Below the pieces are notes generated by a model. The model ran no database searches, was not told the DNA's origin, and was given only the letters and a program-made list of their open reading frames with translations. A DNA stretch of 27,989 nt from a virus. Each line of letters begins with the position of its first letter. Within the stretch, counting starts at the first letter, position 1. The stretch covers positions 1 to 27,989 of the IMG/VR virus record IMGVR_UViG_3300017963_000656; one strand, written 5' to 3'. Below, piece by piece: positions 14,272-21,107 of the stretch. The translations under genes were made by a program, and so were the position numbers.

Positions 14272-14676
14272 TCACCTTCTCAACAGAGTAATCACAGTCA
14301 CGCCGGTACCGTCCGGGTGAACTTCCTTGACATTGAACGTGCGATTGCGAATGACCATCGAATCACCTTTGCCCGGCACACGTTCGAACTTGTCGCTGTC
14401 TGCGATGAACTGCGGCCCGGTTTGCATGATGTCAGCTTCGGTACCGATGTCAACGGTCGTCGCTTCTTCGTCGAAGATTCCGGTGACGGTTTGCGAATGC
14501 CCGTCAGCGAAAGCGTACGTCGCGTCTTCGCCGAATTCATCGCCGTTCAGGAATACGTCGCTGACATCGGCGGCAACGTACCGCTTGAACGGTTCAAGTG
14601 CAATCACCGTTAGCGATGGCGTGCCGCTCGATTCGGCGGTCGGTGTTCCTGTCGGGTCGATGTACTGCGTCGGCAT
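14272..14676 (-). CDS. FII-like head-tail joining protein (134 aa)
   Basis: DVFLNGDEFGEDATYAFADG, then VTGIFDEEATTVD and the C-terminal KGDSMVIRNRTFNVKEVHPD, follow the pattern of lambda FII-type proteins (Phage_attach family): an FGExATY motif, a V.GIFD strand and a final KGD...I.G..Y.V.....D segment. This protein forms the last ring of the neck to which the tail binds. It is the last lambda-like head gene before the Mu-like tail. The start is one base after the previous stop, without an obvious ribosome binding site, so translation is probably coupled. Confidence 0.8.
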   Translation of the reverse strand: MPTQYIDPTGTPTAESSGTPSLTVIALEPFKRYVAADVSDVFLNGDEFGEDATYAFADGHSQTVTGIFDEEATTVDIGTEADIMQTGPQFIADSDKFERVPGKGDSMVIRNRTFNVKEVHPDGTGVTVITLLRR

Positions 14677-14677
14677 A

Positions 14678-16636
14678 CTAGACGACCGTTTCAGTTTCGG
14701 TGTTGAAGTTCACATCTTGCCCAACCGCGACCGTGACCTTGTGCGCGCCGGTACCCGCTTCGTACGAAGAAGGTTTCTGATTCGCGTGCCTTCCTGTCAC
14801 GTTGCGTTCGAAGCTGTAATCAACGAAGTCAGCATCGGTCAGGTCGTCGGCAAGCTTCTGCCCTGCCTTGTCTGCACCGGTGTGCGTCGTGATGTCTTCT
14901 TCCCAAACAGCATCAGCATTCGCGTCAGCGTCAGGAACGTCGGCAAGCGTCTTGCCTGCGGTACCTGCGCCGCTGTGCCCTGACAACGCTTCATCCCAAA
15001 CAGCATCAGCGGTATCGGCAGCGTCAGGCAACGCGTCGACCTTTCCATCAACAGTCGCGACCGCGTCGCTGATTGCTTCAAGCGAATCGGTCGAAGCGTT
15101 GAAGCTGCCGCCTGCCATATCTGCGGCATTGTCTGCGAGCGTCGAACCGCTGCCCAAGTCGACCGGCGCGCCAAGCTTCGGTTGCATGTCTGCGGTGTCG
15201 GCAAGTATCGCCGTCGTGTCAACGATGATTGCAGCGGTGTCGACGAGCAACTGATCCAATTGGTCAGCGTCGATGTCTTTGCCGGTCGCGCCCTTCGTGA
15301 AGGTTGCGCCGTTGCCCGGCTTGTACCCAACGACACGCAGACCGTCACCACCAACCGACGACCCTGTATCACCGCCCGCGATACCGACAATACCATGCGT
15401 GACGGCACCGGCGACTTCGATACGACCCGAACCGCGAATACCTGCGTTGTCGGTGTTGTGCCCGGCGACACCGTGAAAACCGTGTCCGTTCGAACTTGAT
15501 TCGGCGTGTATTGCATCGCCGCCCGCGCTGACCGAAAGACCTTGACCGCTGCCGCCCGGATTCGACAGAACCATCACCGACCCGGTCGCGCCGATTGGCG
15601 TTGTCACTTCTACAACGTTCGCGCCGCTGTCGTTCGTTTCAAGCTTCAAGGCATAGTTGTCGCTGCCTGCGGTACCTGCGACGACCTGTACGCCCGCATC
15701 GCCTTGCAGGTACACAGCGCGAGTACCGGCGACGATGCGAAGACCCTGCCCGGCACCGTCAGTCACCATGTTCACAACGTTACCGCCGCCCGTACCATCA
15801 AGCTTGATAACGTCAGCGCCGCCGCTCGATTTGAAGTCGACCACACCGTACCCGCCGTTGTTGCGGGCGCGAATCACCATGTCGCCCGCGCTGTCAAGTT
15901 CCACAGCGCGCGTACCGCCCGAACCCGGTGCGTTGATTTGTACAGCGCTGCCGCCTGACGACCCGCCCTTCAACCGGGCAGCGACCGACACCGATGCAGA
16001 AAGCACGTCAAGACCGTACCCACCGTTGCCGGGTTGCGCCTTCACACAGGCACCCGCGTCATTCGCGTTCAGCACAAGCGCGCTGCGGTCGCCGCAGGTA
16101 CCCGAATTGACTGCGACAGCATCGGCAGAAGCACCGCCATCGATGGCAGCGGCAACCCCCGAACCTTCGCCCGCGAGTACCAACCCGCGCCCGTTGCTGC
16201 CTGTCGACTTCACAATCAACGCATCGCCTGCGCTGTTCTGAATGTCAAGCTGTTTCAGTTTCAGCGTCGCGTTGTTACCGTCGATAGACTGCCCGCCGAT
16301 TTGCCGCAGGTCGACCGGCACCGGAATCAGACGAATCAAAATCGTCTGTTCGTCGATTTCGTCGGCATTGATTTTCACAATCATATAGTCGTCGGCACCG
16401 CTGCCCGGATTCATTTCCGCTTGCGTGAATGCGAGCGCCCACAACCCGCTAGAACCCTGTTGCGAAGGTGTGCCCGCAATGGTTCGCGATGTCGGCCCCG
16501 ACCCGTCTTGATACGAATACGCAGTCACCGAAGTATTCGTCAGCGTGCCGGTGTGATACGCAGGTCGGCCCGCCGAATTGATAAGCGGTACAACAATCTG
16601 CGTCGCAACGTTTTTCAGTCTCGATACTTCGGCCAT
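14678..16636 (-). CDS. large repetitive fibre-like surface protein (652 aa)
   Basis: The N-terminal ~110 residues (ATQIVVPLINSAGRPAYHTG, then WALAFTQAEMNPGSGADDYM) resemble the folded attachment domain of phage fibre or BppU-like proteins. Residues about 125-440 are Gly/Ala-rich with repeated short beta strands such as GRGLVLAGEGSG and GQGLSVSAGGDAIHAESS, suggesting a beta-helix or fibre shaft. Residues about 465-545 are helical (QLLVDTAAIIVDTTAILADT). Two 31-residue repeats begin with AVWDEALSGH (545) and AVWEEDITTH (576). This repeat is common in phage fibres. The encoding position, between capsid and head-tail genes, allows a head fibre as well as a tail fibre. Confidence 0.7.
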   Translation of the reverse strand: MAEVSRLKNVATQIVVPLINSAGRPAYHTGTLTNTSVTAYSYQDGSGPTSRTIAGTPSQQGSSGLWALAFTQAEMNPGSGADDYMIVKINADEIDEQTILIRLIPVPVDLRQIGGQSIDGNNATLKLKQLDIQNSAGDALIVKSTGSNGRGLVLAGEGSGVAAAIDGGASADAVAVNSGTCGDRSALVLNANDAGACVKAQPGNGGYGLDVLSASVSVAARLKGGSSGGSAVQINAPGSGGTRAVELDSAGDMVIRARNNGGYGVVDFKSSGGADVIKLDGTGGGNVVNMVTDGAGQGLRIVAGTRAVYLQGDAGVQVVAGTAGSDNYALKLETNDSGANVVEVTTPIGATGSVMVLSNPGGSGQGLSVSAGGDAIHAESSSNGHGFHGVAGHNTDNAGIRGSGRIEVAGAVTHGIVGIAGGDTGSSVGGDGLRVVGYKPGNGATFTKGATGKDIDADQLDQLLVDTAAIIVDTTAILADTADMQPKLGAPVDLGSGSTLADNAADMAGGSFNASTDSLEAISDAVATVDGKVDALPDAADTADAVWDEALSGHSGAGTAGKTLADVPDADANADAVWEEDITTHTGADKAGQKLADDLTDADFVDYSFERNVTGRHANQKPSSYEAGTGAHKVTVAVGQDVNFNTETETVV

Positions 16637-16650
16637 AGTATTACCCTTCG

Positions 16651-18633
16651 CTATGCGGTGCCGACTAGTACACCGCGTTCAACCCCTGCGGGCGCGTATC
16701 GGTCGCCGCCGACAGTCGCGAGAACGAACACCCAATGATTCGAATTGTTGCCGCTGTCGACGTTGGTTGTGTCGGTCGCGTCGATGTACCCACCCGACAG
16801 ATTATTGTCTTTGACATCGGTGCGCGTCACGGTTCCGTTGTTCGTCACGTTCACGCGCGCAGCGTCGGTATCGACGCGCGAGCGAATGCGCACGCGGTTC
16901 GTACCGGTACCGCGAAAATCGAAGTCGTCGACCGTCGCGACGTACGTGTCGTCTTCATAGAAGTCGAACACGACATCGGCATAATCTGCGGTCAACTCTA
17001 GTTCGGCGGCATAGAATTCGCAATGGCATTCGACGCTTGTTTCGCTCGATGAACCATTGTCGAGCGTCGACAGCTTGTTGTTCGCCTGCAACGATGTATA
17101 GATGTACCCGGTACCGCCTGTGTAATCGACAATCACATCATACAAGTCGTATTCGACCGGGTGACCCGGCCCGGCGCTGCGCGCCTGCCATGACTCGCCG
17201 AAGTTGCGACATTGAACAAGCGACGTACCTTCGTTGAAGGTCTGCGCTGTGTTGACCGCGTTGGTCGTGATTCCGTATACCGACCATGTTGTATTCTCCG
17301 GGCCGTCTTTCGCCTTGAAGCTTGCCGACTGCAAGTTGTGCGTCGCTGCATCCCATTGCCAACGAATGAACGACGACCAACGTATCGACGACGAACCCCA
17401 ATACGAAGTAAACGTGCAAGCGTCGGCGGCAAGTTCAGGCCCGATTCGAATGTGCGCGTACACGCCTTCGCCGGTGCCGTCAGTCTTCCGAATGTGATAG
17501 TTGTCTGTATAGAACGTAATCACAGCGGAAGACCCCGCCGCCGTCGACCAAATACCGAAGTTGTTGACATCGCGAATGTCGGCAGACATGCGCACCGTCG
17601 CGGTGACGTTGTTGATTATCTCGACGTGCAGCGCCATACCGGTCAACCCGCCGTCGATGTTCCAACCCGTCGACCCGCAAATATAGTGCGTACCTGCGGC
17701 GTTGATTTCATAGTGCAGCGTCGACCCGTTGCCATATATCAAACCGTTCAGTACAAGCGCGGTGCCTGCGGTCGCCTGCCGCAAGTACACATCGTAAGTC
17801 GCGACGGTGTCAAGACGACAATACAGGTCGATGGTCAGTACGCCGGTTGTGCGAATGTCAGAACCCAAGTCGACATCGGCAGCACCGTTTGATATTTGCA
17901 GGTCGAACAGCGTGAAGCTTGCTTCGTCTGCGGTCAACGTCTGCGTCGTCGTACCATCGCACTTAATCTTCGACGACCCTGCGGTGAACGTACCCGACGT
18001 GAACGTCACGTCACCCGCGACTTCGAACAAGCTTGACGAATTCGAACAGTCGAGCGTACCGCCGTTGATTATCAAGTCGCCTTCGATGTCGAAGTCAGCG
18101 TCGCCTTCATCCGGGTCTTTCGTTTTGAAAGTACCGCCCGTCACGCGCAGGTCGCCGTCGATGTCGATAGTATTTGTGCCGCCGTCGTCTTCGAAGGTCA
18201 GCGTACCGGTACCGTTGATTGTGACATCGTTGAAGTTGTGCCCGTTGTCTTGATGTCGCCATGTCGACGAACCGCTGCCCGACCACAAAAGTGTACCGGT
18301 TTGCCCATTGAAAGTACAGAAGGTCGTGACGAAGTTGCCGGTGACTTCAAGGGTACCCGAACCGCCGTTGATTGTTCCGTTGTAGAATTCGCAGCTTCCG
18401 ACTGTCATGCCGTACGTCGAGAAGTCAAGCGTACCGCCATAACCGGGAGTCGACAACCGTTGTACTGTCGTCGTCACGTCAACGGTGCATGTACCGGTAC
18501 CTGAATTGCTGTCGAATATCGCATGGTCGGAACTGCCCGGAACACTCGCGCCGCCGCTGCCGCCCGAACTCGTTGACCAGTTCGCGGTACTGTTCCAGTT
18601 CGAAGTACCCCCGACCCAATATCTATCGGCCAT
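16651..18633 (-). CDS. large beta-rich putative surface/fibre protein (660 aa)
   Basis: The protein begins RYWVGGTSNWNSTANWS, a domain found at the N-terminus of many phage and bacterial surface proteins, followed by repeats of short beta strands (GTLEVTGNFVTT, GDLRVTGGTFKTK, GDLIINGGTLDCS, GDVTFTSGTFTAG), consistent with a right-handed beta-helix over about residues 60-260. The remainder is beta-rich. The C-terminus has a DATDTTNVDSGNNSNHWVF motif typical of this group. There is no enzyme motif. It follows the glycosyltransferase gene by 5 nt with AAGGA upstream, so both are co-translated. A virion-surface fibre or decoration is likely; where it sits is unknown. Confidence 0.7.
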   Translation of the reverse strand: MADRYWVGGTSNWNSTANWSTSSGGSGGASVPGSSDHAIFDSNSGTGTCTVDVTTTVQRLSTPGYGGTLDFSTYGMTVGSCEFYNGTINGGSGTLEVTGNFVTTFCTFNGQTGTLLWSGSGSSTWRHQDNGHNFNDVTINGTGTLTFEDDGGTNTIDIDGDLRVTGGTFKTKDPDEGDADFDIEGDLIINGGTLDCSNSSSLFEVAGDVTFTSGTFTAGSSKIKCDGTTTQTLTADEASFTLFDLQISNGAADVDLGSDIRTTGVLTIDLYCRLDTVATYDVYLRQATAGTALVLNGLIYGNGSTLHYEINAAGTHYICGSTGWNIDGGLTGMALHVEIINNVTATVRMSADIRDVNNFGIWSTAAGSSAVITFYTDNYHIRKTDGTGEGVYAHIRIGPELAADACTFTSYWGSSSIRWSSFIRWQWDAATHNLQSASFKAKDGPENTTWSVYGITTNAVNTAQTFNEGTSLVQCRNFGESWQARSAGPGHPVEYDLYDVIVDYTGGTGYIYTSLQANNKLSTLDNGSSSETSVECHCEFYAAELELTADYADVVFDFYEDDTYVATVDDFDFRGTGTNRVRIRSRVDTDAARVNVTNNGTVTRTDVKDNNLSGGYIDATDTTNVDSGNNSNHWVFVLATVGGDRYAPAGVERGVLVGTA

Positions 18634-18638
18634 GTCGA

Positions 18639-19151
18639 CTATTCCTTCAAGTATGCAAGGTGTCGACCTTGCTGCGAATCGTTAAGCCAAGTCTGCCGCC
18701 AACCGCAGCGCTGCACCTGTTTGCCGAACGCGGTGCAGTTGCACGCTTGCGGGTTGTCGCAAGTGAACTTGATATGGTGTATGATTTCCTTGACAAACAC
18801 CATTGCCCCTATATCAAAGTGACCCGGCGTGTATCGCGGTTTCATGCGCAGGTGAACGACCTTCAAGTCACTAGCGCTTGTCAACAGCATGATACACGCA
18901 TCGTTCAACGCGTCCGGGTCGGTCAGTATGTTGTCGCAATCGAGCATTGCCGCAAACCGACAGTCGACGTTTTCCAACAAGCTGAACAGACGATTGCGGG
19001 TGATTGCCTGTGACGCGTACTTTCCTGCGGGAACGGCAGCGCGTGACACCGCCATCACCGCGACCTTCTGCGACTGCACCGACAACGCCGAAATGAATTC
19101 GGGTTGCATTAGGTGACCGTCTTTCAGCGGCACAAGGCAAGGCAGAATCAT
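18639..19151 (-). CDS. compact GT-A-like glycosyltransferase (170 aa)
   Basis: The protein has a DxD-type metal/nucleotide-sugar motif in FAAMLDCDNIL (D71-C-D73), preceded by an ITRNRLFSLL helix, as in GT-A fold transferases where an R-N segment precedes the DxD strand. The C-terminal part has HFDIGAMVFVKEII and a Cys-rich stretch (CDNPQACNC, RCGWRQTW) and a late His (GRHLAYL). At 170 aa it is short for the fold, so it may be a minimal version. Its start overlaps the preceding stop (ATGA). The context of large surface proteins suggests it sugar-modifies a virion protein, but the substrate is not known. Confidence 0.6.
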   Translation of the reverse strand: MILPCLVPLKDGHLMQPEFISALSVQSQKVAVMAVSRAAVPAGKYASQAITRNRLFSLLENVDCRFAAMLDCDNILTDPDALNDACIMLLTSASDLKVVHLRMKPRYTPGHFDIGAMVFVKEIIHHIKFTCDNPQACNCTAFGKQVQRCGWRQTWLNDSQQGRHLAYLKE

Positions 19152-19555
19152 AGTTTGAATATCTTGTCTGTTCCATCATCCCACCTGACGACTATATCGT
19201 CACCGTCGCCGGTCTTCGGCAATCCTGTCGCTTCGTCGTCATAATGCACAAGCGGCGATGCGCTGTCGATTCCGATGTCTTTGAATATCAACACCGCGCC
19301 AACGCTTGCACCTGTTGCGACGTTCGCGAACGTCGTATCGTCTGCATCGCACACACCGTTCGCCGTACTGCGCCCGGATAGTGTCACCGCCTTAATGCGC
19401 GCGGCAAGGGGCACATCTGACAGGTATTCGTCGTTGGCAAGGTCAGCGGTGTACTGCGATTTGTCAACGAGTACAGCGCGCATCGAGTCGTTGACCCAAT
19501 CGATGTCACCGGTTGCGAACTTGTCGCGCCCCTTGTCGTACAAACCCTTCGCCAT
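19148..19555 (-). CDS. small putative virion structural protein (135 aa)
   Basis: It begins AKGLYDKGRDKFATGDIDW and continues with MRAVLVDKSQYT and DEYLSDVPLAARI, a pattern recurring in a phage protein family that is found next to fibre genes; I recall members from diverse phages but no established function. The rest is beta-strand rich (AVLIFKDIGIDSASPLVHYD). It is not hydrophobic and has no signal peptide. It is coupled by ATGA to the glycosyltransferase gene, so the two may work together. A role as a head- or fibre-associated subunit is likely. Confidence 0.65.
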   Translation of the reverse strand: MAKGLYDKGRDKFATGDIDWVNDSMRAVLVDKSQYTADLANDEYLSDVPLAARIKAVTLSGRSTANGVCDADDTTFANVATGASVGAVLIFKDIGIDSASPLVHYDDEATGLPKTGDGDDIVVRWDDGTDKIFKL

Positions 19556-19589: not shown

Positions 19590-19940
19590 TCAGTCGTTCA
19601 ACGCATCAATGATTCTGTCGGCGGTCTTCTCGCCGATACCTTCGATGTCGGTCAGGTCGTCGGCGCTGACTTCCGCATCGCGCAGCGCGTCGGGCGAATC
19701 ATAACCCGCCGCAATCAGCTTTTCCGCGACAGTCTTATTGACACCGTCAAGCTTGCACAGCGCTTCGACCGCTGCGCCCTGCGGGTCGACTTCCGGGTCG
19801 ATGTCTGCGCCGGTGTCGCAGGGAACACACACGCCCTTGTCAATCAGCGAACGCGCTTCGTCTTTCGACCGGTCAATCACGCTGCCGACAGGCAACCATT
19901 TGCCGTCGCACTTCACCGATACCTTCGTACGCAACTTCAC
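19590..19940 (-). CDS. helix-hairpin-helix protein downstream of major capsid gene (116 aa)
   Basis: The first ~40 residues (TKVSVKCDGKWLPVGSVIDR, then ARSLIDKGVC) match a short fold common in small phage proteins encoded after the capsid gene. The C-terminal half holds two helix-hairpin-helix motifs: LDGVNKTVAEKLIAAGY (about 64-80) and IEGIGEKTADRIIDAL (about 99-114). HhH motifs usually bind DNA non-specifically, or act in protein packing. In lambda this place holds FI, which assists packaging, so a packaging or neck role is possible but not shown. The start is GTG with AAAGGGGG upstream. Confidence 0.75.
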   Translation of the reverse strand: MKLRTKVSVKCDGKWLPVGSVIDRSKDEARSLIDKGVCVPCDTGADIDPEVDPQGAAVEALCKLDGVNKTVAEKLIAAGYDSPDALRDAEVSADDLTDIEGIGEKTADRIIDALND

Positions 19941-20021: not shown

Positions 20022-21050
20022 TTATGCGACAGTCGCGCACAGGAACCCGTCGATCTGGTGCGGCGCGAGAAGCGGCGCAGACTGCATCAGAAGGAACCGG
20101 GCAGACGGGTCTTCCTGTTCCCATGACTTCGCGAAGCGCGGCACAACAAACGTCGCCTTCAAGTCCTGAATCGCCCCATAGTGACGGGTTGCACGAGAAC
20201 CGCGCGCCCACATCACAACCTTGTCAGGGTCAATCATCGGCTTTTCGGTCGACGTGCCGACATCGTAATACCATTCGGTGTATTCCCAAACGTCAAGACC
20301 GGCTTCGTTCAGGTAACCGTGATAGATTACGCCATCGGGCAACTGTTCAGGCACAATCTGCCCAAGCGCGATTCGCCGGTTGTCAAGCAATGCCTTCGCC
20401 GTCGTATTGCGCTGGAAATACTGAACAGCGTTGTACCCCATAATCACATCGCGCGGCGCAAGGCCCGCGTCCTGTGATATGATGTTGCGCCACGTTTTCA
20501 GGTCGGCGAGCGGGTCGCTGTTGGCAAGGTCACTCCATTGGTCAGTACCGACAAGCGCGGGCTTGTGCGTCGCTGCCATGCCGAAGTCGATGGTTGCAGA
20601 AATGCCTTCGCCGACCGCCGTGACAATGCCGGTCTGTATAGCTTCTGCCGCCTGCACTTCTTCGGTACGGTCGATACGTTCCATCAACATACGCAGGTCT
20701 TTGCCAAGCTGACGCTGCGCCTTCTGCTGCGGTGTCGACCCGCCGCTGTACACATTGGTACCCATGTCGCGGGTAAGGAAGTCTTGCGCCGTCGTGACGG
20801 TCTTTTCCTTCGTGTACGGCGGTTCGTACGTGTTGGTCTGGAACCCTTCACGCGTGACGACCTTGCCTTCGAGAAGCGGCGACACGTACGCAGCGATGCG
20901 CCGGTTGCCCTTCTGAATGTCGATGTCAACGTACTTCGTCGTGTGTGTCTCGACATCGTTGAAGATGGTGTCACGCAGGAAGGTGCGCGGTGTCTTGATT
21001 TGCTCGATGGCGCGCAGCATCGTGCGGGTATCAAACATATCGATTGCCAT
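20022..21050 (-). CDS. major capsid protein, lambda gpE family (342 aa)
   Basis: This is the lambda E-like capsid family: DMFDTRTMLRAIEQIKTPRT at the N-terminus, then TTKYVDIDIQKGNRRIAAYV and a PLLEGKVVTREGFQTNTYEP segment (E-loop region), RQLGKDLRMLMERIDRTEEV, and a C-terminal GSRATRHYGAIQDLKA. Length is that of lambda gpE (341 aa). I start at ATG 21050: AAGGGG is 8 nt upstream, while the GTG three codons earlier lies inside that site. It builds the HK97-fold procapsid. Confidence 0.95.
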   Translation of the reverse strand: MAIDMFDTRTMLRAIEQIKTPRTFLRDTIFNDVETHTTKYVDIDIQKGNRRIAAYVSPLLEGKVVTREGFQTNTYEPPYTKEKTVTTAQDFLTRDMGTNVYSGGSTPQQKAQRQLGKDLRMLMERIDRTEEVQAAEAIQTGIVTAVGEGISATIDFGMAATHKPALVGTDQWSDLANSDPLADLKTWRNIISQDAGLAPRDVIMGYNAVQYFQRNTTAKALLDNRRIALGQIVPEQLPDGVIYHGYLNEAGLDVWEYTEWYYDVGTSTEKPMIDPDKVVMWARGSRATRHYGAIQDLKATFVVPRFAKSWEQEDPSARFLLMQSAPLLAPHQIDGFLCATVA

Positions 21051-21107
21051 TGTTGGCACCCCTTTGTTGTTGGTTGTTGGTTCAGTTCACTTGACGTTGT
21101 AGATTCC

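Follow-up and report, generated by a model that had tools for sequence, protein, structure and literature searches.

A four-gene cassette between the capsid and head-closure genes

The window, the whole 27,989-nucleotide stretch of DNA that we analysed, is a viral metagenome contig that carries the structural block of a contractile-tailed phage on its minus strand. The block runs from a GpA terminase through a lambda-type portal, an S49 protease, a decoration protein, capsid protein E and a helix-hairpin-helix protein to four genes, encoding P0004, P0001, P0003 and P0002 in that order; these are followed by head closure Hc1, a tail terminator and the sheath, with baseplate J further down. The major capsid protein (20022-21059, minus strand; PF03864 at 3.7e-71, phrog_29) and Hc1 (14272-14676, minus strand; phrog_82 at 8.4e-19) form the upstream and downstream borders of this cassette, in agreement with a preliminary description of this DNA, which had placed the genes between the major capsid gene and a head-tail joiner.

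The interval between the capsid and Hc1 genes is about 5.3 kb in this phage. In contrast, the capsid gene is separated from the head-tail joining gene by only about 0.2-0.45 kb, with one small gene, in six annotated capsid-protein relatives (Sulfurimonas SNW-1, Vibrio phi 2, Vibrio R20L, Pararheinheimera KLER1-1, Serratia BZS1 and Cylindrospermopsis Cr-LKS3), and the difference in size corresponds to the four-gene cassette (14678-19555). The cassette was absent from the capsid-related viral contigs that we checked, and a complete copy was not found elsewhere when sought via P0004, P0003, P0002 and capsid relatives. The cassette is a set of virion surface genes, inserted between capsid and head-closure genes, that includes one orphan gene of non-structural appearance, and its genomic context supports a virion role.

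We noted two further features of this region. Directly after the capsid gene, and before the cassette, lies a gene for a 116-aa protein with ligase-type helix-hairpin-helix similarity at its C-terminus (19590-19940, minus strand), in a slot that is occupied in relatives by other small, DNA-binding-like genes. Another contig (L010:3626-4162; IMGVR_UViG_3300042731_001979) carries a capsid fragment 98% identical to that of the window, and stops before the cassette.

The orphan is P0001 (18639-19151, minus strand), a 170-aa protein that is probably compact and GT-A-like, as judged from its coding score, its motif and a seeded fold model. Its reading frame is intact over 170 codons, and codon scoring in 120-base windows gave the best coding score to its own frame in nearly all of them, with no frameshift indicated along the gene; we rejected a frameshifted or mis-called gene since the codon scores argue against it. 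The codon score of P0001 is at the low end among the genes of the window and equals that of the ORF at 739-1350. (The latter encodes a 203-aa protein with a WYCSEFDCA motif, suggestive of a papain-like hydrolase, which adjoins an M15 peptidase gene at 1361-1819; it has no PHROG match, and could be a lysis or entry enzyme.) The start codon of P0001 shares an ATGA (19148-19151) with the stop codon of the upstream gene for the 135-aa P0004, so that translation of P0001 is very probably coupled to that of P0004. Both the 170-aa gene and this overlap had been described before and are present in the sequence.

P0004 (19148-19555, minus strand) is a virion protein of phrog_644, which it matches at 3.6e-32 across residues 1-135, the full length of the protein. 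Relatives of P0004 adjoin minor tail genes in mycobacteriophages and follow the capsid genes in F116-like phages, and the phrog_644 member of Catdawg (gp60) was detected in phage particles by mass spectrometry (PMC4351075). P0003 (16651-18633, minus strand) is a surface protein of 660 aa. Its N-terminal module, RYWVGG..W....HWS..SGG.GGASVP, is also found in phage genes and, across many bacteria, in large proteins of surface type; a Pfam scan of P0003 found no family over this module. We also observed that Bacteroidota, among other bacteria, have very large surface-type proteins with this module (cf. L093-L206). P0002 (14678-16636, minus strand), of 652 aa, is likewise of surface type and has relatives in 32 viral contigs. 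The preliminary description had spoken of two beta-rich surface proteins of about 650 aa; the sizes hold, while "beta-rich" comes down to composition and to the RYWVGG module of the 660-aa protein.

Two of the partners of P0001 occur together in an Arthrobacter prophage (L225), in the order distal tail protein, phrog_644 protein, RYWVGG protein and lysin, with the phrog_644 and RYWVGG genes 12 bases apart and no gene between them. The likeness is that the same two partners adjoin after tail genes; the prophage differs in that the pair sits at a siphovirus-type tail position, rather than in the capsid-Hc1 slot, and in that the P0001 gene is missing. Since the pair exists without P0001, P0001 looks like an accessory insertion, that is, an element added between two co-occurring surface genes. 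A search for the same cassette in other phages had been proposed as a check on the function of P0001; with P0001 itself lacking relatives and its two neighbours occurring without it in this prophage, the outcome is compatible with the proposal and not decisive.

Searches, motifs and fold of P0001

P0001 had been called GT-A-like at the outset, and sequence comparison did not confirm this, as no family, relative or PDB match emerged. P0001 had no match at E ≤ 10 in Pfam, PHROGs, NCBIfam, PDB sequences or plasmids, was unmatched at E ≤ 10 in a six-frame search of the record with PF00535 and phrog_12406, had no match at E ≤ 1 in PADLOC, and had no relatives in scans of viral and genome contigs. 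Against 50,697 phage records we obtained two matches, both at chance level; the weak tblastn matches in phages Simon and Bajun were rejected because they lie in short frames, that in Bajun on the strand opposite to the annotated genes. Direct comparisons with glycosyltransferases gave the same result: P0001 scored at the level of shuffled copies with a profile of 26 phage glycosyltransferases, its score with a 13-sequence profile was equalled by about 5% of unrelated ORFs and at least 7% of shuffles, hhalign and HMM comparisons were negative, and its superfamily HMM score fell within the controls.

The motifs of P0001 are more suggestive. The DxD reported earlier at residues 71-73 is present in the translation as D71-C72-D73 (18933-18941, minus strand), a putative metal/nucleotide-sugar site that follows a hydrophobic strand (FAAMLDCDN, residues 66-74; strand 66-71 in the seeded model). 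R52-N53 (18993-18998, minus strand) lies 18 residues before D71, and this spacing, together with the hydrophobic strand and D71-x-D73-N, matches that of true phage enzymes in L003, L048, L216 and L223. Taken by itself, the loose R-N...D-x-D motif carries little weight, occurring in 16 of 1832 non-glycosyltransferase ORFs (about 1%). A stricter motif, composed after seeing P0001, occurred in none of these 1832 ORFs and in 0.005% of shuffles; since it matched just 2 of 38 real glycosyltransferases, it is a fitted motif. When the P0001-derived pattern was run on viral contigs, it retrieved 17 stretches, three of which are GT-A-type enzymes from two families: one (L208; PF13704/PF00535) with a near-identical DDDNILTED, and two (L216 and L223) of a single family, phrog_1574. 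In our judgement, this probably exceeds what chance would retrieve, given how common such genes usually are.

Structure prediction against GT-A folds had been suggested as a check, and its outcome depended on the input. A single-sequence, unseeded model was uninformative (pLDDT 38.6). A model seeded with a 14-row alignment, consisting of P0001 and 13 glycosyltransferase rows, adopted a GT-A fold (pLDDT 68.1, pTM 0.67), with a local pLDDT of about 80 across residues 51-100 and 111-130. In BFVD, its lowest-E match was a family-2 glycosyltransferase from a Synechococcus phage (2.4e-5), and unannotated proteins matched as well; the 50 PDB matches listed were glycosyltransferases and nucleotidyltransferases of the nucleotide-diphospho-sugar fold, and the model superposed on mannosylglycerate synthase with Z 9.8 and rmsd 2.8 over 133 residues. 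Since the alignment rows carry the GT-A fold themselves, the seeded model shows compatibility only, and the check is not decisive. Overall, we consider a GT-A fold fairly likely for P0001, and motif spacing together with the seeded model makes a glycosyltransferase identity plausible.

We considered that P0001 might be no glycosyltransferase, but a small morphogenesis or virion protein of another fold whose motifs are coincidental. The uniformly negative sequence and profile searches, the frequency of the loose motif and the seeding of the fold model with glycosyltransferases all speak for this possibility. Nevertheless, the pattern derived from P0001 retrieved real GT-A enzymes, the seeded model has fair local confidence, and the setting of the gene is typical of phage glycosyltransferases. 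We regard this alternative as rather unlikely, at odds of about one in four.

A more specific question concerns the catalytic residues. A MAFFT alignment of P0001 with 13 glycosyltransferases places RN, DxD, Gly and His in register, and P0001 agrees with them at 5 of 9 near-invariant columns. Because this number of agreements is reached by about 10% of shuffled copies and unrelated ORFs, we rejected the alignment as evidence for a glycosyltransferase. The comparator phage enzymes match STIV A197 (PDB 2c0n; profile E 4e-9), and in both an acidic pair, E-D (N-D in some comparators), precedes the last helix (Glu150-Asp151 of A197 by profile alignment), of which Asp151 is the published catalytic base (PMC4187194). 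In this statistically unsupported alignment the column of the E/N-D motif is occupied in P0001 by N138-C139 (18735-18740, minus strand), which lies 11 residues from the following Gly, as in the comparators, and lacks the acidic base. Thus, by motif spacing, the catalytic Asp of the A197/phrog_1574 class appears to be Cys139 in P0001. If the alignment is right, the usual base is missing; if it is wrong, the main motif evidence is weaker too. H164 aligns with the C-terminal metal-site His, shifted by one residue, and controls show that such matches can arise by chance. In many GT-A enzymes, acceptors bind in the segment between two central strands; this segment is strongly shortened in P0001, whose acceptor region falls far short of that of the comparators.

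These observations raise the possibility that P0001 descended from a GT-A glycosyltransferase and is catalytically dead, and that it either partners the surface proteins in binding or assembly or is decaying. The Asn138/Cys139 pair at the conserved Gly spacing, the length of 170 aa compared to 215-275 aa, and the extreme divergence of a protein for which no relatives were found would all fit such a history. However, the underlying alignment is statistically insecure, the intact frame and ATGA coupling suggest that the product is maintained, and some GT-A enzymes are active without an obvious acidic base. We consider a dead enzyme unlikely, with perhaps one chance in five.

Glycosyltransferases beside virion genes in other viral contigs

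We found undoubted glycosyltransferases in equivalent places of other contigs. In L003 a phrog_644 gene is followed directly by a true glycosyltransferase gene (PF00535 at 3e-8), and the contig also carries a second glycosyltransferase and a methyltransferase-like gene; glycosyltransferases also lie near P0002-like genes in L031, L046, L047, L048 and L053. Moreover, a glycosyltransferase class with ENNLHH...DxDNPP motifs is accompanied by an SGxFxxTxKxS-repeat protein in 23 of 26 stretches, which were fetched by sequence alone and some of which are the same or overlapping contigs. The repeat gene usually starts at, or a few bases from, the end of the enzyme gene, among the other fetched stretches such repeat proteins occurred only in L031, L032 and L047, all three of them enzyme-bearing, and two of the repeat proteins have matches to families of minor tail or virion structural proteins. 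Thus, viral glycosyltransferases of the STIV A197/phrog_1574 type repeatedly adjoin virion surface genes, and their placement makes a dedicated transferase a sensible reading for P0001.

Several observations from this survey stand in their own right. The pair in L063-L088 (e.g. L067:4998-7158, L073:4965-7553 and L079:4992-7133) consists of a phrog_1574-type glycosyltransferase of 215-240 aa and then an SGxF-repeat virion protein; many uncultured phages carry it, usually with the gene of a small conserved protein (..LVPLKVKIG..HADHP..) ahead of it. The survey suggests that small A197-type glycosyltransferases and virion surface repeat proteins are commonly paired in uncultured phages; if so, a sugar coat would be a usual feature of phage particles and not an exception. 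Glycosyltransferase genes at L003:3124-4400, L003:10393-11196 and L168:5093-7394 come with methyltransferase-like genes (L003:3933-4400 and L168:6885-7394), sets that recall the cluster of methyltransferase and glycosyltransferase genes in Corndog-type phages. Downstream of an RYWVGG gene in L125 (7469-7999) lies a 177-aa ORF with glycosyltransferase-like motifs (..IIIANDDIVLTP..); as it has no match in Pfam or PHROG, it is another undescribed compact candidate.

Interpretation and comparison with known systems

The reading that we favor, with a probability of roughly 0.45, is that P0001 is a minimal, accessory GT-A protein and that its targets for glycosylation are the surface proteins next to it. 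An extremely compact GT-A-fold protein, inserted between the phrog_644 and RYWVGG virion surface genes, would most likely take sugar from a host nucleotide-sugar and attach it, before or during assembly, to P0003, P0002 or P0004, its translationally coupled neighbours, and so might alter the virion surface. Of the dedicated transferase proposed in the preliminary description, the surface-cassette setting stands and has equivalents in other contigs; the enzyme identity fares less well, the sequence statistics being negative and the expected Asp appearing to be Cys. A bolder and doubtful proposal is that P0001, as one of the smallest GT-A proteins of viruses, no longer has the canonical catalytic acid and either uses a different residue or is a non-catalytic sugar-binding or assembly partner of the RYWVGG protein, and that phages inserted it between two surface genes that occur together. 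It is improbable that P0001 is an active glycosyltransferase with another target (host envelope sugar, in seroconversion, phage DNA bases or the capsid protein): phage glycosyltransferases acting on DNA or the host surface are known, and the glycans of Che8 and Corndog sit on capsid and tail-tube proteins (PMC12619734, PMC12363180), but P0001 is translationally coupled within a surface-gene cassette, and we noticed no modified-base biosynthesis or membrane partner genes within the window.

The accessory transferase that we favor has parallels in known systems. The minimal GT-A protein A197 of STIV is essential and has been proposed as a coat-protein modifier (PMC10551542) and possibly a minimal active structure (PMC4187194, PMC10551542). 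P0001 resembles it as a small virus-encoded candidate GT-A protein, and the virus of A197 has a glycosylated coat protein, whereas P0001 does not match A197 in sequence, falls about 30 residues short of its length and apparently has Cys for the catalytic Asp151. The phrog_1574/phrog_12406 glycosyltransferases (L003, L031, L046-L048, L053 and L063-L088) share with P0001 the spacing from R-N (or its equivalent) to DxD and likewise belong to virion surface blocks, where they lie near phrog_644-like genes in L003, L067, L069, L073 and L083; unlike P0001, they are 215-275 aa long, have the acidic E/N-D motif and are recognised by profiles.

In the papers considered here, demonstrations of virion glycosylation by phage enzymes come from only a few mycobacteriophages. 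Che8 gp110 and Corndog gp38 are reported to be essential for mycobacteriophage capsid glycosylation, and in cluster O phages the glycosyltransferase genes lie between portal and protease (PMC12363180, PMC4351075). These are likewise small phage-encoded glycosyltransferases that modify virion proteins, with the Catdawg and Corndog genes in the capsid block. They differ in that three glycosyltransferases occur together (joined in cluster O by a methyltransferase), either near the genome end or between the portal and protease genes, in acting on capsid and tail tube, and in having no established sequence relation to P0001. Since the mechanism of virion glycosylation is already known, the novelty here would be a further reduced, base-less form inside a surface-gene cassette. 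The cassette is a simple, self-contained four-gene case, in which a candidate enzyme is coupled to its presumed substrates and which could be tested in a heterologous host.
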